Part shown: in pieces, positions 4,272 through 39,134 of the stretch
Numbering within the stretch: position 1 is the stretch's first letter
Layout of the letters: the number at the start of each line of letters is the position of its first letter
NCBI GenBank assembly: GCA_021823405.1
Contig: JAKAOA010000010.1
Coordinates: forward strand, 1 to 41,690
Length of the DNA stretch: 41,690 bases
Reading direction: 5' to 3'
Source of the DNA: Bacteroidota bacterium
Lineage (GTDB): Bacteria > Bacteroidota > Bacteroidia > JABEUT01
Notes under the pieces: model-generated
Told to the model about the DNA's origin: nothing
The model's input: the letters and a program-made list of their open reading frames with translations, nothing else
Databases searched by the model: none
Program-made: the position numbers and the translations under genes

Positions 4272-5516
4272 TCAGATGACTGCCATTTTCTCCCTTGAAT
4301 AGTAACCTTTTTTTAACTTTACCGCTACTTCGCTGAATGCCTTAATGGTGAAGACGCAATCATCGTCATTATGCAGGGCTGTAGGGATAAGACGCAGAAG
4401 AATGGTTCCTTTGGGTACCACCGGATACACTACTATAGAGCAAAAGATGCCATAATTCTCCCGTAGGTCGAAAGTTACGTTGGTGGCTTCGGGTATGGTG
4501 CCGTTCAGATATACCGGCGTAACAGGAGAATTAGTTTCTCCGATAGTCAAGCCATCCTTCACAAGACCATTTTGGAGATTGGTTACCACTTCCCACAATT
4601 TGCTCTTCAATTCCGGTTTAGTCCTAATAAGTTCCAGACGTTTCAATACGCCCAATACCATAGGCAACGGTAACGATTTGGCATAAATCTGCGAACGCAT
4701 ATTATAACGCAGATACTCCATCACATTCTCACTACCGGCAAAGAATGCTCCTATGGCGGCGAAACTCTTGGCAAATGTTCCGAAATAAATATCAATGCCA
4801 TCCTGTACGCCCTGCTCCTCGCCTGTTCCAGCGCCTGTTTTACCCATAGTTCCTATTCCATGGGCATCGTCAACGAGCAGCCGGAATGAATATTTCTTCT
4901 TCAGGTCGACAATCCCCTTAAGGTTGCCTTGTTTCCCTGACATGCCAAATACACCTTCGGTAATTACGAGTATTGAACCGTTGGTTTCTTTAACTACTGA
5001 TTCAGCGTGCTGTAACTGCTTTTCCAAACTTTCCATGTCGTTGTTGGCATAAGCAAATCTCTTGCCCAGGTGAAGCCGAACCCCATCAACAATACAGGCG
5101 TGGGACTCGGCGTCGTAAACTATAACATCGTGTCGGTCTACAAGACAATCTATAGCTGAAACCATACCTTGATAGCCGTAGTTCACAAGTACCACATCTT
5201 CCTTACCGACAAATGAAGCAAGTTCATTTTCTAACTGCTGATGGTAGTTAGAGTCACCCGACATCATACGTGCACCCATCGGACTCCCTAATCCATAAAT
5301 AGCGGCTGCCTCGGCGTCGGACTTTCTAACCGCTGGGTGATTGGCGAGACCCAAATAGTTATTAAGGCTCCAGATAATAAGCTCTTTACCCCTGAATTTC
5401 ATGTGTGCGCCAATTTCGCCTTCCAGTTTCGGGAACATAAAATAACCATGAGTTTGTTTAGAATATTGCCCTAATGGACCGCGTCTTTCTTTGAGTTTTT
5501 CAAAAAGGTCTATCAT
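4272..5516 (-). CDS. spt: Serine palmitoyltransferase-type alpha-oxoamine synthase
   Basis: 414 residues, PLP-dependent alpha-oxoamine synthase family. The expected enzyme condenses L-serine with a fatty acyl-CoA to give 3-ketosphinganine, the first step of sphingolipid synthesis, in the cytoplasm. Visible residues are the PLP-stacking His139 (DAESHAC), Asp216/Asp217 and His219 (LLVDDAHGIGTMG), and the Schiff-base Lys250 (GTFAKSFAAIG). The pattern resembles the serine palmitoyltransferases of Bacteroides and Porphyromonas. Close relatives in the same fold are 2-amino-3-ketobutyrate CoA ligase, BioF and the cysteate acyltransferase of sulfonolipid synthesis. The last is a real alternative because cysD/cysN and cysQ are also in the window. 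A DEGS-like desaturase at 14958-15914 favours sphingolipid synthesis. A perfect -7 box lies 47 bp upstream. Confidence 0.82.
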   Translation of the reverse strand: MIDLFEKLKERRGPLGQYSKQTHGYFMFPKLEGEIGAHMKFRGKELIIWSLNNYLGLANHPAVRKSDAEAAAIYGLGSPMGARMMSGDSNYHQQLENELASFVGKEDVVLVNYGYQGMVSAIDCLVDRHDVIVYDAESHACIVDGVRLHLGKRFAYANNDMESLEKQLQHAESVVKETNGSILVITEGVFGMSGKQGNLKGIVDLKKKYSFRLLVDDAHGIGTMGKTGAGTGEEQGVQDGIDIYFGTFAKSFAAIGAFFAGSENVMEYLRYNMRSQIYAKSLPLPMVLGVLKRLELIRTKPELKSKLWEVVTNLQNGLVKDGLTIGETNSPVTPVYLNGTIPEATNVTFDLRENYGIFCSIVVYPVVPKGTILLRLIPTALHNDDDCVFTIKAFSEVAVKLKKGYYSREKMAVI

Positions 5517-5905: not shown

Positions 5906-6064
5906 ATAAAAAGCAGGACGGAAGTTAATTTAAGGACAACTTCTCGTTTAGAGTGTCCTATAGAGTTAAAGGTCTATCTCAATTATCTTTTTTTTGTAAT
6001 TTAGCGCATGATTACAAACAACTTCCTTGACTTTAATTAAATAATCCCTCATAATAAAGCTGCC

Positions 6065-6661
6065 ATGGAAAATAAAAGCCCAAGCGCCGATAATACCTTC
6101 GATAAATCTGAAAAGGTAAAGAAGAATATGCGCGGTTACGCCGAGAAATCGAAAGAGACAATACAGGAGATGATTAATTCGAGCATGAAAATACTCGAAG
6201 ATGCAATGGATGAAAATTCAAAGACAGTTGAAAATTTAAAGAACAACTTTGGGTTAGGTGATTTAGGAAAAGAATCTGCTACTGATATAAAGCCATCGCT
6301 TGACAAGTCAGTAGAACTCGCCGAAGATACTTTTGATGCTATAATAAATTCCTACACCAGACAGATGGAACAGATAGTGGATTTTAACACCAAACTTGTC
6401 GACTTGGTAAAAGAATCCGACCCCGACAATGCGGATAAGTTTCTTGACCTTATAAATGAAAATTTTGACCGTACGCGCAATGCAACAACGGGCAATACAA
6501 AAGAGATATTGGATTTATTCAACAAACACTCCAATTTAACCCTTAAATTCAACGAGAAATTCGCCAAAACAGTCAATTCCCAAGTGGATAATCTGTTCCA
6601 GACACAAAAAAACAGCCTTAACAGATTTACCAGTTGGGCTTCGGAATGGTGGAAAGAATAG
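6065..6661 (+). CDS. Phasin-like, all-helical hypothetical protein
   Basis: 198 residues, strongly charged and without signal peptide, membrane segment or cysteine. It is rich in Lys, Glu, Asp and Asn and predicted to be almost wholly helical, with amphipathic stretches over about 15-65, 80-140 and 140-190. It ends in a Trp-rich tail (FTSWASEWWKE). Overall character and size resemble phasin-family granule or coiled-coil proteins, but no decisive motif is present and no polyhydroxyalkanoate synthase is in the window. It stands alone downstream of the CCGUAA-hairpin RNA, which could regulate it. The start at ATG 6065 is the first in frame. A minus-strand open frame over its 3' end is a shadow. 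Confidence 0.7.
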   Translation: MENKSPSADNTFDKSEKVKKNMRGYAEKSKETIQEMINSSMKILEDAMDENSKTVENLKNNFGLGDLGKESATDIKPSLDKSVELAEDTFDAIINSYTRQMEQIVDFNTKLVDLVKESDPDNADKFLDLINENFDRTRNATTGNTKEILDLFNKHSNLTLKFNEKFAKTVNSQVDNLFQTQKNSLNRFTSWASEWWKE

Positions 6662-6928
6662 TGAATATTCACCCGTTGTAGAATAATATCAGGGCAGATA
6701 GTACGGGATAATAGCTGCAATAATTCACTTGAACCTGTGATTTTTTTTGATAGAACCTTCAAAGATCCCACTAAACCATTTTTTCTGTTGATTTTAGTTA
6801 TCTTTCTCAAGAAAAGTGGCTAATTATCAATATTTTTACTATCTTAGCGGTATTATTTTATTGTTTTTAGGTAAAATAATGCCGATATACCCAACTGTTT
6901 CACCAAATTATTCATCTTACTGATAAAT

Positions 6929-7507
6929 ATGCTTCTGGAACCGACAGAACAAGAATTGGTAAATGGCTGCCTGAAAGGCGAAGTTGCCTATCAGCGCATT
7001 CTCTATAAGCGGTACGCTGGAAAGATGCTTATGGTTTGTTTGCGGTATGCTAAAAGCAGGGAAGAAGCGGAAGATGTTTTGCAGGAGGGTTTTATAACAG
7101 TGTTCGAAAAGTTAGGTCAGTTCAAGATGCAAGGTTCATTTGAAGGTTGGATTAGGAGAATTATGGTTAACAAGTCGATAGAAAATTACAGAAAAGTAGC
7201 GCGTTTGTTTCCGTTAACGAATGTAGATGAGATGGAGAATGCGTTTGTGGGAACAAATGATGTGGCGGGCAGTGTAGATACCAAAGACCTGCTTAACATG
7301 ATACACTCGCTTCCGCCCAAATATAAGATGGTTTTTAACCTCTATGTATTTGAAGGAATGTCTCACCAGGAAATAGCTGAAACGCTAAATATTGCTATTG
7401 GCACTTCCAAATCAAATCTTTCTGATGCACGAACTATATTAAAGAAAAAGCTAAACGAGAATATGATAACTGAAAATAAAATAATATACCATGACAGAAA
7501 TGCTTGA
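6929..7507 (+). CDS. ECF-type RNA polymerase sigma-70 factor
   Basis: 192 residues. Region 2 lies at about 20-90, with the -10 binding helix around DVLQEGFITVFEKL and the conserved SFEGWIRRIMVNKSIENYRK. Region 4 is at about 125-180, with LPPKYKMVFNLYVFEGMSHQEIAETLNI followed by the recognition helix (GTSKSNLSDART). Such extracytoplasmic-function factors direct RNA polymerase to envelope-stress or nutrient-response promoters and are usually held by an anti-sigma protein encoded next to them. Here the next gene overlaps by 17 bp and encodes an N-terminally anchored membrane protein, a likely partner. Confidence 0.95.
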   Translation: MLLEPTEQELVNGCLKGEVAYQRILYKRYAGKMLMVCLRYAKSREEAEDVLQEGFITVFEKLGQFKMQGSFEGWIRRIMVNKSIENYRKVARLFPLTNVDEMENAFVGTNDVAGSVDTKDLLNMIHSLPPKYKMVFNLYVFEGMSHQEIAETLNIAIGTSKSNLSDARTILKKKLNENMITENKIIYHDRNA

Positions 7508-9053
7508 GGATAATCCATTGGATAAATTCTTCAGAGATTCAATAGAATCTACCGAAGCCAAGCCGTCCGAACAATTTTGGAACAGGGCATACGAATCCAT
7601 TATTGTGAGGGAAGGTAATATGAACAGGAGAAGAGTACTGGCATGGAGAAGCGCCGCGATTTTGATAGGTTTTATAATGCTTGGACTTACAGCGTACGAC
7701 CTTTATATTACCGATAAAGTGAAGAATTTACGCAAAGATGTCGCAACTATTCAAAGATTTCAAGCAAATGCAACTCTTTCTGGAAAAGATAAATTACATA
7801 GTGTTTCAGTTCCTGCCATTGGGAACACCAATTCAGGAAATATGTATAACCAGAGAGACGTTAAATCGACAATGCCTTCATTTGCTTTGTATCCACACAC
7901 TAAACCTCATAAAACCTCCCAAACGGGCAATAAAAGTACTTCCGGCGTATGCAGAGTTGTATATGCTGATGCAAACCAACATACAACAGGTAGACAACAA
8001 GGCGAAAATGAACAGAAACTGCAACAGGATTTGACCCATGGAAGTAACGCCTACCCTGCTGCCGTTACAGGTAATATGCCATCAGTTTCAGCATCAGTTA
8101 ATACTATATCCGCGCAAAGAAGTACTAATCAAAACAATACAAATGTTCTTACTACGGTTAACGGCAGATTTAACGCCTTTAAGACCCTCTTCAACCCTGT
8201 TACTGCCACTTTAGTACCTTTTTTGAACGCGACCTATCCGGAAGCTATTAAAGCTTCCGAGTCCATGATGCCGGATTCAGCGCTTATGGACGAACCCAAT
8301 CCAGCTGAAAGAGCGAAGAACTACTTTGTTGATGTTATGTTACACAGGTTCTCGGTTTCGGGCTTCTATTCCATCGATAACTTTTTATTTGCCATGAGTG
8401 GATACAATCCTGTTGAGCGCATTAATGCCTCTCAAATGGAAGCCAATGAGCGCAAGGAAACCTCGTTCTCATCCGGTATAAGTATCGGCTATGACCTGTC
8501 GCCCAGGTTTACCGTTCAGGCGGGTTGTAATTACCAACAATACCAGTTCCTGATATCAGCTACCCCATTGAATGTCCAGAACGATTTAGCGTCTTTTTAT
8601 CCATTTGAATCCAGTTCGGGTAACGTTAATCTTGCTCTGTTGCCAGGATGGTCCAATCCGAATGGCGGCGCAGCCGCCGCACAAGGTGATGCTATACGCT
8701 CATATATCTCTGTTCCGGTTCAGTTAAAGTGGAATTTTGTAGAAGACAAAAAGGTTAAAATATATTTGACCGCCGGTGGGGCTGTCAATATACTGGACAT
8801 GAACAGAGCTGATATTGAATGGGGAAATTCATTTGGCTCAAAAACACTGAATATTGACGGCATGGAAGGCACTAATAATATTACATACGCTTATCTGGCA
8901 GGTATAGGAGCAGAATACAAATTAAGCAGGGGATTCTCGGCTTATGTTGAAGGAACATACCTCGGTGCCCTTACACCGGTTGCCGGCGATTCATATATTA
9001 ACGTTAAACCGAACCTTCTAAGTGAGACGATTGGGATAAAGTATCATTTGTAA
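7491..9053 (+). CDS. Membrane-anchored outer-membrane beta-barrel protein, probable sigma-factor partner
   Basis: 520 residues, overlapping the sigma gene by 17 bp. Residues 1-48 are hydrophilic and would be cytoplasmic. Residues about 50-72 form one transmembrane helix (WRSAAILIGFIMLGL), in the position typical of anti-sigma factors. A long Ser/Thr/Asn/Gln-rich linker follows to about 270. The last 245 residues look like a PorT/OmpA-like beta-barrel: alternating aromatic strands such as FSSGISIGYDLSPRFTVQAG, ending in TIGIKYHL. I infer that the N-terminus binds the sigma factor and the C-terminus senses or sits in the envelope. One chain with both an inner-membrane helix and a barrel is unusual; the barrel-like domain may instead be periplasmic. 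Confidence 0.72.
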   Translation: MTEMLEDNPLDKFFRDSIESTEAKPSEQFWNRAYESIIVREGNMNRRRVLAWRSAAILIGFIMLGLTAYDLYITDKVKNLRKDVATIQRFQANATLSGKDKLHSVSVPAIGNTNSGNMYNQRDVKSTMPSFALYPHTKPHKTSQTGNKSTSGVCRVVYADANQHTTGRQQGENEQKLQQDLTHGSNAYPAAVTGNMPSVSASVNTISAQRSTNQNNTNVLTTVNGRFNAFKTLFNPVTATLVPFLNATYPEAIKASESMMPDSALMDEPNPAERAKNYFVDVMLHRFSVSGFYSIDNFLFAMSGYNPVERINASQMEANERKETSFSSGISIGYDLSPRFTVQAGCNYQQYQFLISATPLNVQNDLASFYPFESSSGNVNLALLPGWSNPNGGAAAAQGDAIRSYISVPVQLKWNFVEDKKVKIYLTAGGAVNILDMNRADIEWGNSFGSKTLNIDGMEGTNNITYAYLAGIGAEYKLSRGFSAYVEGTYLGALTPVAGDSYINVKPNLLSETIGIKYHL

Positions 9054-9112
9054 TATCGGAAAAACCAATATTTAAGATTCATTGATAAGCTAATCGCAGG
9101 AATGCGAGATAG

Positions 9113-10390
9113 TTATAGTATCATCCCGGCGCCTATTGTTTCGTTGGTTGATTCGTCGATTAGAATGATACCGCCGGTATGACGGTTCTTACGATAGGCA
9201 TCGAAAAAAAGGGGTTTTGTTGTTCTGATGGTAACCCTCCCTATATCGTTCATTTTTAACTCCTTATCATCATCTATCCGATGCAATGTAGTGATGTCCA
9301 ATTTATATAGAATATCCTTTAAAATACACTGTAAATCCTGCGTAGTATGTTTCAGTATATACCTGCCGCCAACCGTCAGTTTTTTTTCATTCATCCAGCA
9401 GAGCATCATTTCAATATCCTGCGCTATTCGTGGTTGGTTGTGAGGACGCGCAAACATATCACCGCGGCTTATATCTAAATCATCATCAAGCAAAATAGTT
9501 ACGGACATACCTGGCAGCGCCTCTTCAATTTCGCCGTTATAGGTATTTATCGCTCTAATCTTTGATTGAAGTCCGGACGGTAAAATTACTATGGTATCCC
9601 CCTTCCGGAAAATACCTCCTGCTACCTTCCCGGCATACCCCCTGTAATCATGGTATTTATCCGATTGAGGACGAATTACATACTGAACCGGAAAGCGACA
9701 ATCAATTTGGTTTTCATCGCTTGATATGTGTATGTTTTCCAGTGCATAAAGCAGGGCGCTTCCTTTGTACCAAGGCATTTTTATTGATTTATCCACAACA
9801 TTATCGCCTGTTAGCGCCGAAATAGGTATGAATTGCACATCAGTCACCTCCAGTTTCGCGGCGAAACTCTCATAGTCCTCTCGAATCTTTTCAAAAACTT
9901 CTTCTTTATAATCAACAAGGTCCATTTTATTTACACACACTATTATATGCCGCACTCCCATTAGGGAGGTGATAAGGGTATGCCGGCAGGTTTGTTCGCC
10001 GATTCCTTTGCGGGCATCTACAATTATAATGGCAAGGTTGGCTGTGGAAGAACCGGTTATCATATTTCGGGTATATTGTATATGACCGGGAGTATCGGCT
10101 ATTATGAATTTCCTTTTGGGAGTGGCAAAATAGCGGTATGCCACATCTATCGTTATACCCTGTTCGCGTTCTGCACGCAGTCCATCAGTGAGCAGCGCCA
10201 GATTAACTCTCTCCTCACCCCTCGACTCGCTTGAACGCTGCAATGCTTCGAACTGGTCGTCAAAAATGGATTTAGAGTCATAAAGGAGCCGTCCGATGAG
10301 CGTGCTTTTACCGTCGTCGACGCTGCCTGCGGTAAACAACCGGAGAAGACCCCTGTTGCCATGTAGTTCGTGTGTGATTTTATCCTTCAT
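9113..10390 (-). CDS. cysN: Sulfate adenylyltransferase subunit 1 (GTPase)
   Basis: 425 residues. CysN is the GTPase subunit that drives adenosine 5'-phosphosulfate formation by CysD. The translation-factor GTPase domain occupies about 14-225: P-loop GSVDDGKST at 22-30, DTPGH at 99-103 and NKMD at 154-157. Two EF-Tu-like beta domains follow. The protein ends at the usual CysN length, so no APS kinase (CysC) is fused. It is 9 bp downstream of cysD in the same operon. APS reductase and sulfite reductase are not in the window, so whether the product feeds assimilation or sulfonation is open. Confidence 0.95.
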   Translation of the reverse strand: MKDKITHELHGNRGLLRLFTAGSVDDGKSTLIGRLLYDSKSIFDDQFEALQRSSESRGEERVNLALLTDGLRAEREQGITIDVAYRYFATPKRKFIIADTPGHIQYTRNMITGSSTANLAIIIVDARKGIGEQTCRHTLITSLMGVRHIIVCVNKMDLVDYKEEVFEKIREDYESFAAKLEVTDVQFIPISALTGDNVVDKSIKMPWYKGSALLYALENIHISSDENQIDCRFPVQYVIRPQSDKYHDYRGYAGKVAGGIFRKGDTIVILPSGLQSKIRAINTYNGEIEEALPGMSVTILLDDDLDISRGDMFARPHNQPRIAQDIEMMLCWMNEKKLTVGGRYILKHTTQDLQCILKDILYKLDITTLHRIDDDKELKMNDIGRVTIRTTKPLFFDAYRKNRHTGGIILIDESTNETIGAGMIL

Positions 10391-10399
10391 TCTGCGAAA

Positions 10400-11320
10400 T
10401 CAAAAATACCCTGCTTTTTTGCGATCTTCCATTGCCGCTTCCGATCGGCGGTCGTCGGCACGCGTGCCTCTTTCAGTTAGCCGTGAGGCAGCCACCTCTT
10501 CTATAACCTCGTCGATATTAGATGCTGCGGATAGGATAGCTCCGGTACAAGTCATATCGCCGATGGTTCTGAAACGCACCCTATATTCCTTATACTCTTC
10601 TCCTTCTTTAGCCGTCAGGTAATCCGATTTCGCCAGGAGAGTGCCATTTCTGTCAACGCACTGGCGCAGGTGGCTATAATAGATGGATGGTATAGGGATA
10701 TTCTCCTCCTTAATATATTGCCATACATCAAGTTCAGTCCAATTACTTAATGGGAATATCCGGAAGTGTTCCCCTTGGTTTTTTCTGCCATTAAAAAGGT
10801 CCCAGAGTTCCGGTCGCTGGTTTTTAGGGTTCCACTGCCCGAATTCATCGCGATGCGAAAAAAACCTCTCCTTTGCCCTCGCCTTTTCTTCATCCCTGCG
10901 CGCGCCGCCAATTGCAGCGTCCAGTTTTAACTCTTCTATAGCATCAAGCAGGGTAATTGTCTGCAGCAGGTTACGACTTGCATTGTATCCTTTTTCTTCT
11001 TTCACTCTGCCCTGGTCTATTGAATGCTGGACGTAACGAACCAAGAGACGTGCATCAAGGGTTTTCACCCAATTATCGCGGTATTCAATGGTTTCCGGAA
11101 AGTTATGCCCTGTGTCAATGTGCATTAAGGGAAAAGGAATTTTTGCGGGAAAAAAAGCTTTCCGCGCCAGATAGCTAACTACAATGGAATCCTTACCGCC
11201 CGAAAAAAGAAGCGCCGACCGTTCAAATTGCGCCGCTACTTCACGCAGTACATAAATAGATTCTGATTCCAGCTCCCTTAAATGACTATTACTGACTCCC
11301 ATTCCGCTTGTTTTCTTCAA
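10400..11320 (-). CDS. cysD: Sulfate adenylyltransferase subunit 2
   Basis: 306 residues, PAPS-reductase/PP-loop family. The ATP-binding motif SGGKDS is at 40-45. The family-typical MHIDTGHNFPETIEYRD and AIGGARRDEEKARAKER are visible, as is the C-terminal GDMTCTGAI signature. CysD catalyses adenylation of sulfate by ATP to form APS, with CysN. It is the first gene of a two-gene operon, and a perfect -7 box lies 38 bp upstream. The cysQ gene 11 kb away encodes the enzyme that removes the PAP by-product when PAPS is used. Confidence 0.96.
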   Translation of the reverse strand: MKKTSGMGVSNSHLRELESESIYVLREVAAQFERSALLFSGGKDSIVVSYLARKAFFPAKIPFPLMHIDTGHNFPETIEYRDNWVKTLDARLLVRYVQHSIDQGRVKEEKGYNASRNLLQTITLLDAIEELKLDAAIGGARRDEEKARAKERFFSHRDEFGQWNPKNQRPELWDLFNGRKNQGEHFRIFPLSNWTELDVWQYIKEENIPIPSIYYSHLRQCVDRNGTLLAKSDYLTAKEGEEYKEYRVRFRTIGDMTCTGAILSAASNIDEVIEEVAASRLTERGTRADDRRSEAAMEDRKKAGYF

Positions 11321-11357
11321 TGGTGTTTCCCTTAAGTATCCATTTACTCAAGATTTG

Positions 11358-11365
11358 CAAAATTA
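11358..11365 (-). promoter_or_regulatory. Bacteroidota -7 element for cysDN
   Basis: The minus strand reads TAATTTTG, a perfect TAnnTTTG, 38 bp upstream of cysD. No TTG is seen at the matching -33 distance. Confidence 0.45.
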
Positions 11366-11452
11366 GCAAAAAGAGGTAATTATTCGGTTGATAAAACGGA
11401 GATGCAATAAGTGGTTTGACTGCGAGGACATGTTCTATCGTTTATATTTGAC

Positions 11453-11495
11453 TTTGCCCAGCAATATTGCGAGGCAAAATCTTCTGCAATCTGTA
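11453..11495 (+). repeat. Dispersed hairpin repeat, copy A
   Basis: TTTGCC (11453-11458) pairs with GGCAAA (11473-11478), followed by a conserved tail CTTCTGCAATCTG. Copy B (11939-11980) keeps the hairpin with different stem bases, and copy C (13803-13834) keeps the tail. Confidence 0.55.
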
Positions 11496-11525
11496 TAATT
11501 TCAATATTTTAACATTTGGCTAAAA

Positions 11526-11552
11526 ATGGCTAATTATGGCTAATTATGGCTT
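11526..11552. repeat. 10-bp direct repeat
   Basis: ATGGCTAATT occurs twice in tandem and is followed by a partial third unit (ATGGCT). A related GGCTAATTAT occurs near 6818. It is a short, probably neutral tandem duplication. Confidence 0.5.
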
Positions 11553-11705
11553 TTATTCCGAAGAGCGCCAAACTATGTATTTCAGATATTTTAATGCAAC
11601 ATATTGATTTACAATCAATTTATAAAGCTTTAAAAATTTGACGTTCACAAAATCATTTACAGGCACTATATTTTCTGTTGTCAAAATCATTTTATTTCAG
11701 TTAGA

Positions 11706-11808
11706 AGTTTATCTCATAGCTTATCGTTAATAGCTCATAGCTTATATCTCATAGTTTATATCTTATCTCTCATAGTTCATCGTTTATAACTCATAGCTTT
11801 TAGCTTCA
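11706..11808. repeat. Second heptanucleotide array (reverse orientation)
   Basis: Read on the minus strand, this is about 14 units of the ATRARVK heptamer found at 2-85 (ATAAGCT, ATGAGCT, ATGAACT and so on). It includes one 5-bp truncated unit (11713-11717) and some degenerate units at the 11808 end. Confidence 0.8.
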
Positions 11809-11938
11809 GAGCGCAAATATATACAATAATTAATTACATAGTACATAAAAAGACAACTTATTTTAATTATGCGAAGCAATTAATTGAGGATGAGGCAATA
11901 AAAATTTTGATGATTTCTTTGTATGCGCCCCTGTTGAT

Positions 11939-11980
11939 TTTGTCCGGCGGTATTGCGGGACAAACGCTCCCTGTAATCTA
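11939..11980 (+). repeat. Dispersed hairpin repeat, copy B
   Basis: TTTGTCC (11939-11945) pairs perfectly with GGACAAA (11958-11964), then a tail close to copy A. The stem differs from copy A at paired positions, so pairing is preserved. Confidence 0.55.
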
Positions 11981-11996
11981 TCTCAAAAAGCGTTTA

Positions 11997-13397
11997 TCAA
12001 AATTTGATAACCTTTTGGGTATAAAAGGTATTTCCTTCATTAACTTTCAAAAGATATATCCCATCCGATAGCGAAGATACATCAATTTGCTGATAAATCA
12101 TACCATTTTGGTCTGTTAAGCTTTGGTCGTACACGCGCTGCCCCAGCATATTATACATTTCAAACTCAATATTTTGGTTCTGTCCTGCATTCATTTGTAC
12201 GGTAATCTGATGAGAGGCAGGGTTGGGATATACCGTCAACGCCTGTAAACCTGCCTTTGCATAATCTATTCCCGTTATGTTGGCGTTTGTGTCAATTTTA
12301 AAAATTACTCCATTATTGTTTGCTCCTCCTACTGTAGCCGTGCCATAAAACAAGTTACCGGATGCTGTCAAGCTCCCCCAGGGAGCAGCACCGCTGGAAT
12401 CAAAATCATGCAAGTCCCTGAAATTAAAGCCATTTGTATCGATAGAAAAAATGTCGCCGCCGGTATACCAACCTCCGGTAAAGGTCATTCCATACAATCT
12501 TTTGTTAAGGAGAGTCAGGTCGCTGTAAGGAGTGCTACCGTTAATGATTCGTGTGGAGAATAATTGAACCAAAATACGATAATGACTTCCGTCTGTATCA
12601 ATTGAAAATACCACTCCTCGGTTGGGGATACCGCCCTCCGATGTCATTCCGAACAATTTTCCTCCAAAAATGGTTACATCACCGTAGGGATCTACCCCAT
12701 CATTTGATATTTCTTGAAAATCGTGCAGGTCCTTGTAATTATTTCCATTAGTATCAACAGAAAAGACATTTCCATACATCCCGTCTTCCTGCGTCATCCC
12801 GTAAAAATATTTATCTGAATTTATCAATGTACCGGTAGGGTAAGCCCCATTAGGGATAGAAAAGTCATAAATGTCCTTAAATGCGCTTCCATCCGTGTCT
12901 ATTGAGAAAATACAACCGCCATGATAGGGACCACCGCTATAAACCATCCCATACAATTTATTGTTTAGGTAAATCAATGAACCCCATGGGTTTGCGCCAT
13001 TTGTGTCATTGAAGTATAGCAGGATTTTAAATGAACTACCGGTGGTATCCATGGAGAAAATAATACCATGGTTTGCCTTACCTCCATATATAGTCATGCC
13101 ATAAAGTATTTTGCCGTTAAGAATTATTGAACCATAAGGATGACAGCCATGGATACTGTCAAAATCATGCAACTTCCTGAACGCATTGCCCGACGTATCC
13201 ATCGAAAAAATTGTTCCGTCTCCATAGGTTCCTCCGTTTCTCGTTATGCCGAACAAGAGATTGTTTGAACGAACAAGATTACCAACAGGAGTGGAACCTT
13301 CCACACCATTAAAATAGTGCAGAATTGTATATTGCCCTTGACAAATGCTGGTCGCATCGAACCAAAAGGCGAAAATTAAGGAAATATAATACCTCAT
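11997..13397 (-). CDS. Secreted GloVer-repeat protein with T9SS sorting domain
   Basis: 466 residues. A signal peptide ends near residue 21 (cleavage before QYTILHYF). Six full tandem repeats of about 50-60 residues and a partial seventh follow, each containing a G-x-I/V-F-S-x-D-T-x-G-x-x-F/Y block and an L-Y/F-G-M-T block. This is the 'choice-of-anchor tandem repeat GloVer' pattern. The last 80 residues are a type A T9SS sorting domain: VYPNPASHQITVQM through GIYLLKVNEG. The protein is expected to be exported through the Sec and T9SS routes to the cell surface or medium; its substrate is unknown. A near-identical copy of the sorting-domain DNA lies just upstream (13413-13829). Confidence 0.9.
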   Translation of the reverse strand: MRYYISLIFAFWFDATSICQGQYTILHYFNGVEGSTPVGNLVRSNNLLFGITRNGGTYGDGTIFSMDTSGNAFRKLHDFDSIHGCHPYGSIILNGKILYGMTIYGGKANHGIIFSMDTTGSSFKILLYFNDTNGANPWGSLIYLNNKLYGMVYSGGPYHGGCIFSIDTDGSAFKDIYDFSIPNGAYPTGTLINSDKYFYGMTQEDGMYGNVFSVDTNGNNYKDLHDFQEISNDGVDPYGDVTIFGGKLFGMTSEGGIPNRGVVFSIDTDGSHYRILVQLFSTRIINGSTPYSDLTLLNKRLYGMTFTGGWYTGGDIFSIDTNGFNFRDLHDFDSSGAAPWGSLTASGNLFYGTATVGGANNNGVIFKIDTNANITGIDYAKAGLQALTVYPNPASHQITVQMNAGQNQNIEFEMYNMLGQRVYDQSLTDQNGMIYQQIDVSSLSDGIYLLKVNEGNTFYTQKVIKF

Positions 13398-13412
13398 GGT
13401 GTTCTTACTTTT

Positions 13413-13829
13413 CTATTGCAACTTAACAATCTTCTTACTATAAAAATTATTCCCTTCATTAACTTTCAATAGATAGATACCATCCGACAGCGAAGATACA
13501 TCAATTTGCTGATAAATCATACCATTTTGGTCTGTTAAGCTTTGGTCGTACACGCGCTGCCCCAGCATATTATACATTTCTAACTCAAGGTTTTGGTTCT
13601 GTCCTGCATTCATTTGTACGGTAATCTGATGAGAGGTAGGGTTGGGGTAAACTTTTACCCCTTCATTACCTATTATTATTTGGGGTACTCCCGCATTTAT
13701 CGCTTCGCAAGCACAAGGTTTAGGGGTTGAATTTTCAGAGTTGATAAAAGGCATAAAAATTTCATAGATAAGACAGGAATCGATTAAAAAAATACTTGGA
13801 ATGTTCGGGCGGGATAAACGCTTCTGCAA
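13413..13829 (-). pseudogene. Truncated gene keeping only a T9SS sorting domain
   Basis: An open frame of 138 codons beginning with TTG. The last 80 residues are a T9SS type A sorting domain almost identical to that of the downstream GloVer protein; 92 bases (13489-13580 against 12070-12161) are identical. The first 60 residues have no signal peptide and no known domain, and the first codons lie inside a dispersed repeat (copy C). A T9SS cargo without an export signal cannot work as written. I read it as the 3' remnant of a duplicated cargo gene, although a short real gene is not excluded. It lies 15 bp upstream of the GloVer gene and is read in the same direction. Confidence 0.6.
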
Positions 13830-13834
13830 TCTGC
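13803..13834 (+). repeat. Dispersed hairpin repeat, copy C
   Basis: GCGGGATAAACGCT followed by TCTGCAATCTG combines the left part of copy B and the right part of copy A. The 5' arm of the hairpin has decayed here. It overlaps the apparent start of the sorting-domain remnant. Confidence 0.5.
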
Positions 13835-13869
13835 ATTCAGAGTAAACAGAGTTAAAAGCAAATTGCCGG

Positions 13870-14859
13870 TTAAAGCAGTTTTGATTTTAACAGGTATTCC
13901 GCTATTTGCACTGCATTTGTGGCTGCGCCCTTGCGCAGATTATCTGATACCACCCACATATTTAGGGTGCGGGGCTGCGATTCATCTCTTCTTACTCTAC
14001 CCACAAACACCTCGTCTCTGCCTTCGCTGTGTATAGGCATCGGATAGACATTTTCTTTAGGATCATCCGCTAAAATAATCCCTTCGGATTCCGATAATAG
14101 CTTTCGCACTTCACCCAAATCAAAATCTTTTTCAAACTCTGCATTAATCGACTCCGAATGCCCGCCGGTTACAGGTACCCTGACGGTGGTGGCGGTTACC
14201 CTAATTGCTTTATCACCTATTATTTTTATTGTTTCGTTCACCATTTTCATTTCCTCCTTTGTATAATCGTTTTCGAGGAAAACATCGATATGCGGCAGCA
14301 CGTTCAAATCTATCGGGTGAGGATATGTTCCTTTGCTTTTATCGCCTCTGCGTTCATTAAGAAGTTGCGTTACACCTTTTTGTCCCGTTCCTGTTACTGC
14401 CTGATAGGTGCTTACAACAATACGCTTAAGGCGGTATCTCTTATGCAGCGGGTTAAGCGCCACAACCATTTGAATGGTGGAACAGTTCGGATTGGCGATT
14501 ATCTTGTCGTCCTTTGTAAGAACGCTGGCATTTACCTCGGGGACAACCAGTTTCTTGGAATTATCCATTCTCCAAGCCGATGAATTGTCGATTACCGTTG
14601 TGCCTGTTGCCGCAAACTTCGGCGCCCATTCAAGCGACACGGCGCCACCGGCGGAAAATAAGGCGAGTTGGGGATTGCGCGATACAGATTCTTCCAGAGT
14701 AATAATCTTACATGGTTTCCCGTGAAAATGAACATTACGCCCGGCTGATTTATCCGATGCGACAGGCAATAGCTCGGTGACAGGAAATTTTCTTTCCTCC
14801 AATATCTTTATCATTGTGCCGCCTACTAATCCAGTGGCGCCTACTACTGCTACTTTCAC
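13870..14859 (-). CDS. asd: Aspartate-semialdehyde dehydrogenase
   Basis: 329 residues, normal length. It reduces aspartyl phosphate to aspartate semialdehyde for lysine/diaminopimelate, threonine and methionine synthesis. The NADP-binding motif is at 4-14 (AVVGATGLVGG), the nucleophile is Cys126 (NPNCSTIQ) and the catalytic His234 lies in TGGHSESI. The start at 14859 is firm because the glycine motif follows at once. A perfect -7 element ends only 4 bp upstream of the ATG, so the message may be leaderless. The gene is divergent from the desaturase gene with 98 bp between the starts. Confidence 0.97.
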   Translation of the reverse strand: MKVAVVGATGLVGGTMIKILEERKFPVTELLPVASDKSAGRNVHFHGKPCKIITLEESVSRNPQLALFSAGGAVSLEWAPKFAATGTTVIDNSSAWRMDNSKKLVVPEVNASVLTKDDKIIANPNCSTIQMVVALNPLHKRYRLKRIVVSTYQAVTGTGQKGVTQLLNERRGDKSKGTYPHPIDLNVLPHIDVFLENDYTKEEMKMVNETIKIIGDKAIRVTATTVRVPVTGGHSESINAEFEKDFDLGEVRKLLSESEGIILADDPKENVYPMPIHSEGRDEVFVGRVRRDESQPRTLNMWVVSDNLRKGAATNAVQIAEYLLKSKLL

Positions 14860-14863
14860 ACGG

Positions 14864-14871
14864 CAAAGTTA
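14864..14871 (-). promoter_or_regulatory. -7 element abutting the asd start
   Basis: The minus strand reads TAACTTTG, a perfect TAnnTTTG. Its last base is 5 bases from the A of the ATG, so transcription would begin at or within a base or two of the start codon. Confidence 0.5.
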
Positions 14872-14920
14872 AGTAAAAGTTATCTCTGTTGAGGTAAATA
14901 AAAATATAGTCAAAATTGAT

Positions 14921-14928
14921 TATATTTG
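14921..14928 (+). promoter_or_regulatory. -7 element for the desaturase-gpsA operon
   Basis: TATATTTG is a perfect TAnnTTTG, 29 bp upstream of ATG 14958. Because it lies after an in-frame ATG at 14916, it supports 14958 as the true start. The -33 element is not clear. Confidence 0.5.
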
Positions 14929-14957
14929 CCACCCTAATAAATCCCGATATAAATACG

Positions 14958-15914
14958 ATGGAACGAAGAAATGATTTTTTTTATACCGAGGCAAAGGATA
15001 TACACTTTATCCGTCCGATTGATATTATAAAGGAACATCCCGAGTTAAAGCAATATATCGGTACAAAAAATCCATATTCTATATTTATAGTGCTTACAGC
15101 GGTGGCGCTTCAGATATTTCTCGCATGGTTTTTACACGATAAGCCCTGGTGGATGGTAATAGCCGCCTCATGGCTTATCGGAGCATTTTTTGTTCACTCA
15201 CTGTTTGTAATGGTTCACGAGTTAAGCCACAACCTCTTCTTCAAGAAAAAGCAGGCGAATATGCTTGCCGGAATTTTCGCTAATTCGGTTATGTTTTTTC
15301 CCAGTTCGGTTTCCTTCGCCCGTTATCACCTGAAACACCACGCCCATCAGGGTATTCCTGAATACGACGCTGATCTCCCATCTGCATGGGAAGCGAAGGT
15401 TTTCAAAAATTACACAATAGGAAAGGCACTCTGGTTTCTTTTTTATCCGGTTATACAAGCTGCGCGCGTGCCTCGAATGCGAGAGATAAAGGCATTCGAC
15501 AGATGGGTGGCGCTAAACTGGCTTGTGGTAATAGGAGCCGATGCAGCCATTTGGTACTTTTTCGGCGTAAAAGGTTTTATATATATCGGGGCATCGTTCT
15601 TTTTTTCCATCGGTTTTCATCCGTTGGGCGGAAGGTGGGTGCAAGAACATTACCTTGCCAGCGATGATGTGCAGGAAACCCACAGTTATTATGGTCCACT
15701 GAATACCATAGCTTTTAATGTAGGTCATCATAATGAACATCATGATTTTCCATCGATTCCGTGGAACCACCTGCCCAAAGTTAGAAAGGCGGGAGAAAAA
15801 TGGTATCACAGCATACATTATCATACATCCTGGACATACCTTTGGCTACGCTTTATCTTCGACAGGCGGCTTTCCATTTATTCAAGGATGTTGCGCAAGC
15901 GCCACGAGAAATAA
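14958..15914 (+). CDS. DEGS-like sphingolipid (dihydroceramide) delta-4 desaturase
   Basis: 318 residues, against 323 for human DEGS1. Residues 6-42 match the N-terminal Lipid_DES segment (HPELKQYIGTKNP aligns with the DEGS Y-P-E-I-K region). Four or more membrane helices follow. All three di-iron histidine boxes are present: HELSH (His87, His91), HLKHH (His124, His127, His128) and HNEHH (His258, His261, His262). The sequence after His221, SYYGPLNTIAFNVGHHNEHHDFPSIP, is extremely close to DEGS1, as is the C-terminal Y-S-R-M. DEGS introduces the 4,5-trans double bond into dihydroceramide. A serine palmitoyltransferase gene 9 kb away makes a sphingolipid substrate plausible. It is followed by gpsA after 38 bp. 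The true substrate is inferred; a fatty-acid or other lipid desaturase is the alternative. Confidence 0.85.
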   Translation: MERRNDFFYTEAKDIHFIRPIDIIKEHPELKQYIGTKNPYSIFIVLTAVALQIFLAWFLHDKPWWMVIAASWLIGAFFVHSLFVMVHELSHNLFFKKKQANMLAGIFANSVMFFPSSVSFARYHLKHHAHQGIPEYDADLPSAWEAKVFKNYTIGKALWFLFYPVIQAARVPRMREIKAFDRWVALNWLVVIGADAAIWYFFGVKGFIYIGASFFFSIGFHPLGGRWVQEHYLASDDVQETHSYYGPLNTIAFNVGHHNEHHDFPSIPWNHLPKVRKAGEKWYHSIHYHTSWTYLWLRFIFDRRLSIYSRMLRKRHEK

Positions 15915-15952
15915 GATAAGTCCGGCGCCGAATATTGAGAATCCAAAGAACC

Positions 15953-16948
15953 GTGGCAGAAGAAAAAATAGGTATTCTTGGAGCCGGGAGCTGGGCTACG
16001 GCTCTGGTAAAGATACTGGATAATAACGTTTCTTCTATTAACTGGTGGATAAGGCGCAAGGAGAGCGCAGATTATATACGGAAATACAGCCATAATCCGA
16101 GTTACCTAAGCGATGTAGAGTTGCCTGTCCATAAAATCACACTCTATAACGAAATAACGGAGATTGTCCGCAAATCCGACATATTAGCCCTCGCCATTCC
16201 CTCTGCCTTCATGAGTGAGGCATTAAATGGTTTGAAAAAGGACGACCTGAAAGGGAAAATAATTTTTTCGGCAGTTAAGGGTACCCTTCCAGATAAAAAA
16301 ATGATGGTAAGCCAATACCTGCAAAGCGAATTCGGACTGCCTTTTACTTCAATCGGGATAATTGGCGGACCATGTCATGCGGAGGAAGTTGCGATGGAAA
16401 AATTATCTTACCTGACTGTGGCATCACCCGACATCCAAAAGGCAACACAAATAGCTAAACTTCTGACTTGCCGCTATATTAAAGCGGGAATATCTGATGA
16501 CCTTGTGGGAATAGAATATACCACTGCACTTAAAAATATTTATGCTATAGCTAGCGGTATTTGTCACGGACTTGGTTACGGCGATAATTTTCAGGCAGTA
16601 CTCGTTGCAAATGCCTTGCAAGAAATTAAAAGGTTCATAGACCATGCTCATCCATTACACCGGGATGCAGCCAAATCGGCTTATCTCGGCGATTTGCTTG
16701 TAACTGCTTACTCCCAGTTCAGCAGGAACAGAACGCTTGGTAGTATGCTCGGGAAAGGATATTCGGTAAAAAATGCACAACTGGAAATGAACATGATAGC
16801 CGAGGGCTATTATGCTGTGAAAACAATTTACTTTATCAACCAATCCTTTAAAGTTGAAATGCCTATATGTGATGCGGTGTACAGGATTCTTTATGAAAAA
16901 ATGTCCCCGATGGTGGAGATTCGACTACTTACTGAAAGATTATCATGA
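15953..16948 (+). CDS. gpsA: NAD(P)H-dependent glycerol-3-phosphate dehydrogenase
   Basis: It reduces dihydroxyacetone phosphate to sn-glycerol-3-phosphate for phospholipid synthesis. The N-terminal Rossmann motif is IGILGAGSWATAL. The family motifs SAVKGT (catalytic Lys), IGGPCHAEEVAM and the C-terminal-domain VGIEYTTALKNIYAIASGICHGLGYGDN are present. The start is ambiguous: a GTG at 15953 puts the glycine motif five residues in, as is usual, while a TTG at 15935 would add six residues. It follows the desaturase gene closely and is probably co-transcribed, forming a small lipid-synthesis unit. Confidence 0.94.
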   Translation: MAEEKIGILGAGSWATALVKILDNNVSSINWWIRRKESADYIRKYSHNPSYLSDVELPVHKITLYNEITEIVRKSDILALAIPSAFMSEALNGLKKDDLKGKIIFSAVKGTLPDKKMMVSQYLQSEFGLPFTSIGIIGGPCHAEEVAMEKLSYLTVASPDIQKATQIAKLLTCRYIKAGISDDLVGIEYTTALKNIYAIASGICHGLGYGDNFQAVLVANALQEIKRFIDHAHPLHRDAAKSAYLGDLLVTAYSQFSRNRTLGSMLGKGYSVKNAQLEMNMIAEGYYAVKTIYFINQSFKVEMPICDAVYRILYEKMSPMVEIRLLTERLS

Positions 16949-17017
16949 AATTTATATTAACACTTCAGTAAGCCGTACCCCAATTGTACTGTAAATAGAA
17001 CGATATTATACTCAAAA

Positions 17018-17911
17018 ATGGAAACATTATCGACTTGTCCTTTATGCGGTTCGTCTCAACTCTCTTCATTCTTAGAGTGCACCGATTACACGGTTAGCAA
17101 AGAAAAATTCAAAATTACAGAATGCGAATCGTGCGGTTTTCGCTTTACTAATCCGAGACCCGAGGAGGGAGTTGCCGGCGATTATTATAAGTCGGAGGAT
17201 TATATTTCGCACTCCAACACGACTAAAGGCATTATAAACAAGGTGTATCGGCGAGTGCGCAAAATTACTCTTAAAAATAAGTACCATCTGGTAGCATCCG
17301 CTTCCGGGAAAAGTACGGGAAACCTTCTTGATATCGGATGCGGCACAGGGGAGTTTGCGAATACATGTGCTAAGTTTGGCTGGAAGGTAAAGGGAATAGA
17401 GCCCTCCGGTATGGCGCGGGAATTCGCAAAAAAAGAGTATGGTCTGGAAGTAGCTGACGCCGGTTCTTTAAATTCATTTACCAGCAACTCAATGGATGTA
17501 GTTACGGCATGGCACGTGTTAGAGCATATTTACGACCTGAAAGGAACAATAGAACAGGTTAAAAGAATTTTGACGGCGGAAGGTGTTTTTATAGTTGCCC
17601 TTCCGAACTGTTCTTCCGCTGATGCACAGTTTTATAAGGAATACTGGGCGGCTTACGATGTACCCCGTCATATATGGCATTTTACACCAGCTCATGTTCA
17701 AGCATTATTTGAGAGTAAAGGATTCAAGCTAACTAAAATATTACCCATGTATTTCGACGCTTATTATATTTCAATGTTGAGTGAAAAATATAAGGGAGGA
17801 AATGTAAATTATGGCAGGGCGCTGGTGCATGGTTTTTTTTCCAACAGACAGGCAAAAAAGACCGGCAATACATTTTCCAGCGAGGTTTATATTTTGAAAC
17901 CTAATAGATAA
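17018..17911 (+). CDS. Class I SAM-dependent methyltransferase with N-terminal zinc ribbon
   Basis: 297 residues. Residues 7-39 contain two CxxC pairs (Cys7/Cys10 and Cys36/Cys39), a zinc-ribbon-like cap common in methyltransferases of surface-sugar or small-molecule pathways. The SAM-binding motif is LLDIGCGTGEF at 103-113, with the acidic IEPS strand end near 130 and a motif-IV-like VVTAWHVLEHI near 155-165. The substrate is unknown. It begins a plus-strand run of five closely spaced genes, 69 bp after gpsA. Low similarity of function among the neighbours gives no clear hint. Confidence 0.88.
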   Translation: METLSTCPLCGSSQLSSFLECTDYTVSKEKFKITECESCGFRFTNPRPEEGVAGDYYKSEDYISHSNTTKGIINKVYRRVRKITLKNKYHLVASASGKSTGNLLDIGCGTGEFANTCAKFGWKVKGIEPSGMAREFAKKEYGLEVADAGSLNSFTSNSMDVVTAWHVLEHIYDLKGTIEQVKRILTAEGVFIVALPNCSSADAQFYKEYWAAYDVPRHIWHFTPAHVQALFESKGFKLTKILPMYFDAYYISMLSEKYKGGNVNYGRALVHGFFSNRQAKKTGNTFSSEVYILKPNR

Positions 17912-17932
17912 GACAAATTTTACTGTAATTCT

Positions 17933-18646
17933 ATGGCTTGTACTATTGGTATAACGGACTGCAGTAAATGGGAGAACTATAATAACTGGATTCAACAAGG
18001 CGCGCAAGAGATGAGCGTTATTCGACTAAGCTCCCATGAGAATAATGCAGGGCTTGCTGAACAGTGTTCTGGAATTATTCTTACCGGCGGCGAAGATGTT
18101 CACCCGTCATATTATAACAAGTCGGATTATGTAGCACGTTATAACCTGAAAGATTTGAATATAAAGCGCGACGAATTTGAATTTTCAGCGCTAAAAAAAG
18201 CTGTAGCCAGAGACATTCCGATACTTGGTATATGCAGAGGTCTGCAGGTGGTTAATGTATTTTTAGGCGGAACCCTGATACCCGACCTACCCTCAATAAA
18301 TAAACACATACATAGTTCGGCAAACGGTAAAGGCGATACCTCACACGCATTGAATTTGACCAAAGGCAGTATGCTTTACAAATTAACCGAAGGCAAGGAG
18401 GACCATATATGGGCGGTAAGGTCGCACCACCATCAGGCGGCAGATATACTTGGTAACGGGCTGATAGTCACCGCTCTCTCCGATGACGGGATTGCGGAAG
18501 GGATAGAAAAGGAAAGCGGAAAATCAGAACTTTTTTTTGTTCTAGTACAATGGCACCCCGAAAGGATGAACGAAGGCAACCCAATGTCGGGTGCGCTTCG
18601 GGATTCATTTTTAGATGCTTGCAAGAAGTATGAGGCGAATTTCTAA
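17933..18646 (+). CDS. Class I glutamine amidotransferase-like hydrolase (peptidase C26)
   Basis: 237 residues of the gamma-glutamyl-gamma-aminobutyrate hydrolase (PuuD-like) family. The nucleophile is Cys101 in GICRGLQ; His208 and Glu210 in QWHPERM complete the triad. The oxyanion strand TGGEDVHPSYY is typical. Members cleave gamma-glutamyl amides and act alone rather than as synthetase domains. The exact substrate is not shown by the sequence, and no putrescine-utilisation genes are nearby. It follows the methyltransferase by 21 bp and precedes a thioesterase; co-transcription is likely. Confidence 0.9.
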   Translation: MACTIGITDCSKWENYNNWIQQGAQEMSVIRLSSHENNAGLAEQCSGIILTGGEDVHPSYYNKSDYVARYNLKDLNIKRDEFEFSALKKAVARDIPILGICRGLQVVNVFLGGTLIPDLPSINKHIHSSANGKGDTSHALNLTKGSMLYKLTEGKEDHIWAVRSHHHQAADILGNGLIVTALSDDGIAEGIEKESGKSELFFVLVQWHPERMNEGNPMSGALRDSFLDACKKYEANF

Positions 18647-18717
18647 TTTTGCACCTTAATCAACATCTTGGGGAAGTTAAACAACTCCAATTCCATCTAA
18701 CGCTATATAAAATATTT

Positions 18718-19233
18718 ATGCAACCGAAATCGCCCAAAGAAAGTTTTACAACCTCTACCCATATAGTATTACCCAATGACACAAATGTACTTGGCAACCT
18801 GATGGGAGGGAGGTTACTGCACTGGATGGATATCACCGCAGCTATAACCGCCAATCGACACTGCCGCAGAGTAGTTGTCACCGCGTCGGTTAACCATGTT
18901 TCGTTCAGTCGTCCGATAGCGCTTGGCGATACAGTTACCCTTGAATCACGTATTTCAAGGGCATTTACAACATCCATGGAGATATTTATAGAGGTTTTTG
19001 TAGAGGGTAAAATGACAGGAGAAAAGGTGAAATGCAATGATGCAACGTACGTATTTGTCGCAGTTGACCAGGTTGGAAAACCCATTGAAGTACCGCCAGT
19101 TCTGCCTGAAACGCATAGAGACAAGGAACTATACGAGGACGCATTAAGAAGAAAGCAATTGGGTCTGCTGCTTGCAGGAAAAATTAAACCCGGCGATGCA
19201 CCCGAGTTAAAAGAATTATTTTCAGGCAAATAA
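18718..19233 (+). CDS. Acyl-CoA thioesterase (hotdog fold, YciA/ACOT type)
   Basis: 171 residues from ATG 18718. An upstream in-frame TTG at 18649 would add 23 atypical residues and is less likely. The hotdog motif NVLGNLMGGRLLHWMD includes the catalytic Asp38, and the beta-strand VVVTASVNHVSFSRPI is characteristic of the family that hydrolyses acyl-CoA to free acid and CoA. The C-terminal tail (EDALRRKQLGLLLAGKIKP) is found in several Bacteroidota homologues. It is the third gene of the run and could set acyl-CoA pools for lipid synthesis, but chain length is not predictable. Confidence 0.9.
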   Translation: MQPKSPKESFTTSTHIVLPNDTNVLGNLMGGRLLHWMDITAAITANRHCRRVVVTASVNHVSFSRPIALGDTVTLESRISRAFTTSMEIFIEVFVEGKMTGEKVKCNDATYVFVAVDQVGKPIEVPPVLPETHRDKELYEDALRRKQLGLLLAGKIKPGDAPELKELFSGK

Positions 19234-19265
19234 ATGTAAAATAACACTGCCGACGAATTCTTAAA

Positions 19266-19820
19266 ATGGCGATAAAAATATATACTAAGACGGGCGATAG
19301 AGGACAAACGTCGTTACTTGGAGGCACACGCCTGCCCAAACATCATATACGTATAGAAGCTTATGGCACAGTAGACGAACTATGCGCATGGATAGGGTTA
19401 CTGCGCGACAGCTTAACCGACAAAAACGACTTGAAAACTCTGATTTATATACAGGACAGATTATTCACCATCAACTCATCTCTTGCCTCCGACCCGCACA
19501 AAAATAAGTTCAAAATACCCCATATTGGAGAGCAAGATATTACTATGCTTGAAAAGGAAATTGATAACATGGATGCAGTTCTCCCTGAAATGAAATCGTT
19601 TGTAATACCGGGAGGTCATGTAACAGTATCACAATGCCATATAACGAGATGTGTCTGTAGGCGCGCAGAAAGAATGGTGGTTCACCTTTCCGAAACAGAT
19701 AAAGTAGATGAAATAATAGTTCGATACTTGAACCGACTCTCGGATTACCTCTTCATGTTAGCCCGCAAACTTGCACATGGTTTGAATGTAGAAGAGATAC
19801 CCTGGATCCCTAAAATGTGA
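19266..19820 (+). CDS. Cob(I)alamin adenosyltransferase, PduO type
   Basis: 184 residues. It transfers the adenosyl group of ATP to cob(I)alamin, making adenosylcobalamin. The N-terminal ATP motif TKTGDRGQTSLLGG (from residue 7), the AYGTVDELCAWIG helix, RAER and the C-terminal LNRLSDYLFMLAR are diagnostic of the PduO/MMAB family. It implies use of a B12-dependent enzyme such as methylmalonyl-CoA mutase, which is outside the window. Its stop overlaps the possible GTG start of the next gene (ATGTGA). Confidence 0.95.
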   Translation: MAIKIYTKTGDRGQTSLLGGTRLPKHHIRIEAYGTVDELCAWIGLLRDSLTDKNDLKTLIYIQDRLFTINSSLASDPHKNKFKIPHIGEQDITMLEKEIDNMDAVLPEMKSFVIPGGHVTVSQCHITRCVCRRAERMVVHLSETDKVDEIIVRYLNRLSDYLFMLARKLAHGLNVEEIPWIPKM

Positions 19821-20800
19821 AATTGAAACCGGCAACAACATTGCAAAAGCCCGGAGTTAAGCATACATGTGTGAATCGAATTGCGATAATTGACATTGGC
19901 ACCAATACTTTTAATCTTGTAATTGCCGAAAAAAACAGCAGTGGGAAAATTGTTTTTGTTCATCAAAAAGAACTACCTGTAGAATTAGGCAGAGGGGGCA
20001 TACATAAAGCGCTTATCACTCCGGATGCATTTGATAGGGCAATAAAAGCGCTTCTTTCGCATCGCCTGATAATCGATAAATACGAGCCGGTTGAATTCTA
20101 TGCTTTTGCTACTTCGGCAGTACGCGATGCTGCCAACAGTAAAGATTTTACCGAACGAATAAGGATTGAAACAGGAGTGGAAATTAAGGTTATTTCGGGC
20201 GACGAGGAGGCGCATTGGATATACGAAGGCGTAAAACATGCATCCCTATTAAGTAAAAGGACAAGCATTATAATGGATATAGGCGGTGGAAGCACTGAAT
20301 TTATCATTGGAAACGATAAAGGCATTTACTGGAAACAGAGTTATCCGCTGGGTGTATCACGACTGTTTGAGATATTTCAGCCGGAAAATCCCATAAGCGC
20401 CAAAAATAAGAAAGATGTGGAAGAATATTGTCTGAATGCATTAAGTGATTTCTTTTCTGCTGCAGAAAGGTATAATCCCTTAGAACTTATCGGTTCTTCA
20501 GGTTCGTTTGAAAGCTTTGCACAGATGCTCATTTGCCGGGAAGGTAAGAAGAGCGTACCAAAAAATGGTTTTAATATTAAACTGACGGGATTTGAGAATC
20601 TATACAATGATATTCTCGCATCCACTCTCGAACAACGCCTAAAAATGCGCGGATTACTAAAGATGCGCGCCAATGCCTTCGGATTTTCTGTAATGCTGAC
20701 AAAACTTGTATTGGATAAACTATCAATACCCAAAATGACATTATCCCTCTATTCACTAAAAGAGGGGATAGCAGGATACATGTTAGGAATGAAGGAATAA
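19817..20800 (+). CDS. Exopolyphosphatase / Ppx-GppA phosphatase family protein
   Basis: Up to 327 residues. The actin-like ASKHA ATPase fold motifs are visible: phosphate-1 IAIIDIGTNTFNLVIAE, the FYAFATSAVRDAANS segment and phosphate-2 IMDIGGGSTEFII. The family hydrolyses polyphosphate or pppGpp. It is shorter than E. coli Ppx and lacks the C-terminal HD-like domain, which is common in Bacteroidota. The GTG at 19817 overlaps the preceding stop and would give translational coupling; a GTG at 19871, right before the phosphate-1 motif, is the alternative start. The stop lies only 4 bp from the convergent PHP-phosphatase stop. Confidence 0.9.
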   Translation: MKLKPATTLQKPGVKHTCVNRIAIIDIGTNTFNLVIAEKNSSGKIVFVHQKELPVELGRGGIHKALITPDAFDRAIKALLSHRLIIDKYEPVEFYAFATSAVRDAANSKDFTERIRIETGVEIKVISGDEEAHWIYEGVKHASLLSKRTSIIMDIGGGSTEFIIGNDKGIYWKQSYPLGVSRLFEIFQPENPISAKNKKDVEEYCLNALSDFFSAAERYNPLELIGSSGSFESFAQMLICREGKKSVPKNGFNIKLTGFENLYNDILASTLEQRLKMRGLLKMRANAFGFSVMLTKLVLDKLSIPKMTLSLYSLKEGIAGYMLGMKE

Positions 20801-38944: not shown

Positions 38945-38983
38945 TCTCATATAATCTTTATTTATCTCATTACTGCGCAATTG

Positions 38984-38991
38984 CAAAGGTA
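38984..38991 (-). promoter_or_regulatory. -7 element for the GlsB-like gene
   Basis: The minus strand reads TACCTTTG, a perfect TAnnTTTG. Its position favours the start at 38944 or 38950 over an ATG at 39043. Confidence 0.5.
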
Positions 38992-39134
38992 TCAATAATG
39001 ACTTAAAAAATGCCCAATAACCTGTTGGATTTATATCGAACACGATTGAATTTGATAAAATTCACAAATTCAAAGCATCGGTATAACTGTTCATACAGGT
39101 GTACTGCCCGTATGTCATTTTGCGGCCAAAAAAG

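Follow-up and report, generated by a model that had tools for sequence, protein, structure and literature searches.

The window analysed here, a stretch of 41,690 nucleotides corresponding to contig C180 of a 2.8-Mb Bacteroidota genome that is 99.2 % complete, carries on its forward strand an ORF of 318 codons plus stop, beginning with ATG at 14958 and ending at 15914. Profile matches, conserved histidines, blastp and trees place its 318-amino-acid product in the sphingolipid delta-4 desaturase (DES/DEGS) family. Beginning 20 bp 3′ of this gene is gpsA, encoding an NAD(P)H-dependent glycerol-3-phosphate dehydrogenase (15935-16948, +), and the pair is kept in all eight genus loci examined. A SAM methyltransferase gene (17018-17911, +) is the third member of a run conserved in the genus, which spans 14958-20800 (+) and reads DES, gpsA, methyltransferase, (peptidase C26), thioesterase, cobalamin adenosyltransferase and Ppx. 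On the reverse strand lies a homologue of cysteate C-fatty acyltransferase (SulA/CapB/CFAT; 4272-5516, -). The window also encodes glycine-lipid synthesis in the form of the glycine N-acyltransferase GlsB (37991-39043, -; 485 bits with NF053696).

The initial annotation credited the desaturase with three histidine boxes and a SYYGPLN block, and all of these could be located. Histidine box 1 (HELSH, residues 87-91; 15216-15230, +) and histidine box 2 (HLKHH, residues 124-128; 15327-15341, +) precede a QETHSYYGPLN...NVGHHNEHHDFP block, of which the segment running from SYYGPLN at residue 243 through histidine box 3 (HNEHH, residues 258-262) occupies 15684-15743 (+). Among 42 bacterial homologues from several phyla both histidines of box 1 (H87, H91) and all three of box 2 (H124, H127, H128) are invariant, together with H221, H231, H258, H261 and H262, and the same is true of the QET.SYYG and HNEHHD block. 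The Pfam FA_desaturase profile (PF00487) matches the protein at 97 bits (E 1.6e-27; cut-off 29.7). The Lipid_DES N-terminus (PF08557), also part of the earlier description, holds up less cleanly, with 26.3 bits in the genome search and 22.7 bits by hmmscan against a cut-off of 23. It is thus borderline in the window protein and stronger in its relatives, at 27-41 bits in genus-mates and up to 61 bits in other Bacteroidia. The claimed similarity in length to DEGS1 holds, and the resemblance extends from end to end: blastp against an uncurated human DEGS1 sequence aligned 317 residues at 35 % identity (E 1.6e-62), while the best other desaturase of the comparison set reached only E 3e-4. On sequence comparison this likeness is far beyond chance. 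An AlphaFold model built from 11 sequences (pLDDT 79) gave Foldseek matches of probability 1.00 that include the di-iron membrane hydroxylase AlkB (8sbb) and viral desaturases, so the protein is predicted to adopt the desaturase/hydroxylase fold; a sequence search returned no structurally solved relative. These comparisons confirm a real and conserved membrane di-iron enzyme of the DES/DEGS family.

Phylogenetic analysis was consistent with this assignment. Against an outgroup of 17 further FA_desaturase-superfamily proteins, all DES sequences, eukaryotic ones included, formed a single clade (99/99), which recurred at 100/100 in a second tree with four close outgroups; the eukaryotic references (human, fly and Arabidopsis) were uncurated sequences and serve as a guide only. 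The window protein falls inside this clade, apart from further FA_desaturase-superfamily members encoded in the source genome and its relatives, and not among fatty-acyl or carotenoid desaturases, which bears out the proposed membership of the DEGS family. Its description as a homologue of DEGS1 stands at the level of the family, but within that family it belongs to a bacterial subfamily that the trees and signature motifs separate from eukaryote-like bacterial DES. The uncurated human, fly and Arabidopsis sequences cluster with the Bacteroidota proteins L022 (Bacteroidetes SW_11_45_7), L023 (Saprospiraceae) and L054 (100/100 in the first tree, 92/74 in the second), whereas the window protein belongs to a distinct and larger bacterial group. 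Its subfamily is marked by HPLG.R..QEHY ... IPWN and the eukaryote-like bacterial DES by GHFISEHY ... NIPG. Measured against the uncurated eukaryotic DES1/DEGS1 reference (PF08557 plus PF00487), the window protein shares the length, the three histidine boxes, the QETxSYYGPLN...NVGxHNEHHDFP block and the N-terminal DES motif, and its branch differs in having HPLG.RW.QEHY and IPWN in place of HP..GHFI.EHY and IPG. A tree with the outgroup attached to the window branch was not rejected (p 0.52), so that the analysis fixes neither the root within the DES family nor a direction of transfer.

The picture of the gene as an isolated oddity did not survive wider sampling, in which DES appeared as no single-genome curiosity. 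PF08557 matches were found in 11 of 11 genomes of the genus and in 33 of the 396 sampled Bacteroidia genomes (~8 %), and homologues were carried by MAGs of Bacteroidetes, KSB1, Acidobacteria, Verrucomicrobia, Bradymonadaceae and one proteobacterium. An apparent fusion in the Acidobacteria locus L018 was discarded as it looks like an over-extended GC-rich frame. No DES homologue was found in viral contigs, and the sole plasmid match was a distant fatty acid desaturase.

Among the main features that set ceramide apart from dihydroceramide structurally is the 4,5-double bond. Our preferred reading, to which we give a probability of about 60 %, is that the window enzyme is a 4E-desaturase of N-acylated long-chain bases, that is of dihydroceramide and/or N-acyl-capnine. 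As a membrane-bound, di-iron and O2-dependent desaturase it would most likely take N-acylated membrane lipids of the sphingoid type and give their long-chain base a trans double bond at C4-C5. The 4E regiochemistry is taken from the family, and the electron donor, as well as desaturation rather than hydroxylation as the outcome, is likewise presumed. The putative substrate would be dihydroceramide supplied by serine palmitoyltransferase (SPT) and/or the N-acyl-capnine sulfonolipid supplied by the CFAT of the same window.

DES is associated with SPT. SPT was present in 16 of 33 Bacteroidia genomes with DES and in 26 of 363 without (odds ratio 12, Fisher p 5e-9), and stratification by family left an odds ratio of 7.6 (p 0.003, from approximate counts). 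SPT is also encoded without DES in the sampled members of families f33 and f57 and in the control Bacteroides ihuae, a pattern to be expected if an O2-dependent enzyme were lacking in anaerobes. DES-carrying MAGs of KSB1, Acidobacteria and Saprospiraceae encode enzymes with SPT as best profile or with the SPT alanine. In a verrucomicrobial MAG (locus L019) DES (6045-7064) is followed 200 bp later on the same strand by an SPT-like gene (7262-8554) whose product has SPT 3a2b as its best PDB match; genes for a GNAT acyltransferase and for two CDP-alcohol phosphotransferases lie close by. The arrangement recalls the sphingolipid region of Caulobacter (PMC11324152). The stretch 6045-16714 of the same locus, which further contains a class III aminotransferase and an NTP transferase, is a candidate sphingolipid gene cluster.

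The source assembly itself contained no SPT, not even a fragment, its only close alpha-oxoamine synthases being CFAT and a BioF-like protein. In the nearest relative, G010, SPT is followed 36 bp on by an SDR/epimerase gene and then by PTPS, pyrB and pyrR; contamination was considered for this SPT contig, which was kept because another G010 contig has a matching GC content and tetranucleotide composition. In the source genome the corresponding contig, C166, has pyrR-pyrB-PTPS but breaks off within the SDR, at 11277 of 11277, so that only the last 105 residues of the SDR (69 % identical) are encoded. All 10 of 10 other genomes having the SDR carry it immediately 3′ of SPT, and it was found in none of the other genomes tested that have no SPT. 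As C166 stops inside a gene that accompanies SPT so regularly, a gap in the assembly probably hides the SPT of the source genome, and the argument that a genome devoid of SPT must hold a sulfonolipid enzyme is weakened accordingly. Dihydroceramide, the substrate initially proposed, is a candidate and no more: the window encodes a CFAT, no SPT is assembled and several relatives have DES and no SPT, but the SDR partner cut at the contig end leaves it plausible.

The strongest alternative is that the enzyme of this genus acts specifically on N-acyl-capnine from the CFAT pathway, giving 4E-unsaturated sulfonolipids and not ceramides. G002 (98 % complete) and G006 (96 %) have neither SPT nor its SDR partner but keep DES and CFAT, as does G008, and at the intact pyrB locus of G002 and G008 folD-like and SRP-type genes, as judged from the sequences, occupy the place of SDR and SPT. 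Across the class CFB-type SPT is absent from 17 of 33 genomes with DES. In the 13 of these that lie outside the genus no SPT was found, all strong SPT-profile matches being KBL and/or CFAT, and matches of 340-370 bits in relatives that might have passed for SPT were 2-amino-3-ketobutyrate ligases. CFAT was present in 16 of the 17, and with no other long-chain-base-forming synthase found, the substrate that suggests itself in genomes devoid of SPT is a capnine lipid. Unsaturated sulfonolipids exist, examples being flavocristamide A and a diatom deoxyceramide sulfonate. The window CFAT is a close homologue of the SulA/CapB enzymes (PDB 7u7h, which is SulA, E 1.4e-180; 28eh, E 6e-170) and possibly acts upstream of DES. 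It bears the hallmark lysine as K280, equivalent to K281 of SulA; in the alignment this column was lysine in the window CFAT and eight relatives and alanine in 7 of 7 SPT-type proteins checked. Lysine in place of the SPT alanine distinguishes the cysteate acyltransferase, and the sulfonolipids it leads to are analogues of ceramide-1-phosphate, first found in a diatom (PMC9304779). Capnine synthesis is accordingly predicted for the window CFAT, making it a candidate source of substrate for DES. A physical linkage of the two genes was discounted, as the 10-kb spacing seen in the window is not conserved and they lie on different contigs elsewhere in the genus. Against a strict sulfonolipid specificity stand the association of DES with SPT, the probable gap in the source assembly and the near-universal occurrence of CFAT in the class (353 of 396 genomes), which renders its presence unspecific as evidence. 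We regard this alternative as rather doubtful. The wider proposal, that in many Bacteroidota a DES-family delta-4 desaturase converts N-acyl-capnine to sphingosine-type sulfonolipids independently of ceramide, is put forward as a tentative possibility.

A different outcome on the same substrates would be hydroxylation at C4, as with DEGS2 or SUR2, yielding phyto-type bases and no double bond. The same di-iron chemistry allows both outcomes and DEGS2 is bifunctional, but its third histidine box reads HVEHH, while that of the window protein is HNEHH as in the desaturating DES1. This makes a C4-hydroxylase unlikely, with the proviso that sequence alone is not decisive. Bacteroidota are known to contain capnoid bases with a hydroxyl, as in RIF-1 with its 5-hydroxy group (PMC3463246). 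Action on some other acyl lipid (fatty acyl, phospholipid or glycine lipid) by a desaturase or hydroxylase merely resembling DES appears improbable, for although assigning membrane desaturases from their sequence is difficult, SPT is absent from half of the genomes with DES and GlsB is encoded in the window, the protein clusters with DES and not with its superfamily relatives, and the DES-specific N-terminal motif is found in its relatives.

The open-access literature searched contained no characterised bacterial delta-4 desaturase, and its sulfonolipid papers described no desaturation step or enzyme for the sulfonolipid base. In a 2016 classification of the superfamily the delta-4 cluster went unanalysed, and many prokaryotic desaturases were noted to be uncharacterised (PMC5037126). 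By its published description Caulobacter CC_0202 is comparable as a bacterial enzyme of the desaturase/hydroxylase kind with a reported sphingolipid substrate, but it is a DesA-family hydroxylase acting on the amide-linked fatty acid and not on the base (PMC11324152). The genomes of the eukaryote-like DES L022 and L023 contain SPT-like enzymes and no CFAT match above 35 % identity. Bacterial homologues are already visible in public data through the Pfam DES profile; what is new is the clade, its distribution and the question of substrate. Sphingolipids and sulfonolipids of bacteria have effects on hosts and on choanoflagellates. If the family makes the 4,5-bond, some environmental bacteria would be able to produce sphingosine-type lipids, and its members are candidate genes for unsaturated bacterial long-chain bases with a bearing on the origin of the eukaryotic enzyme.

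The SDR/epimerase at locus L110 (2076-3101), which follows SPT within ~1.4 kb in 10 of 10 Bacteroidia genomes with the full SDR, is a candidate 3-ketosphinganine or ceramide reductase. The same locus contains a ~40-bp element (8326-8372) that looks like an interspersed repeat: G000 has it at over ten sites, and it occurs in G002, G006 and G008 as well. Upstream of DES in the window, a short ORF with little beyond a Por_Secre_tail (13413-13829, -) adjoins a full-length ORF with a near-identical tail (11997-13397, -) and looks like a remnant or a duplicated type IX secretion cargo.
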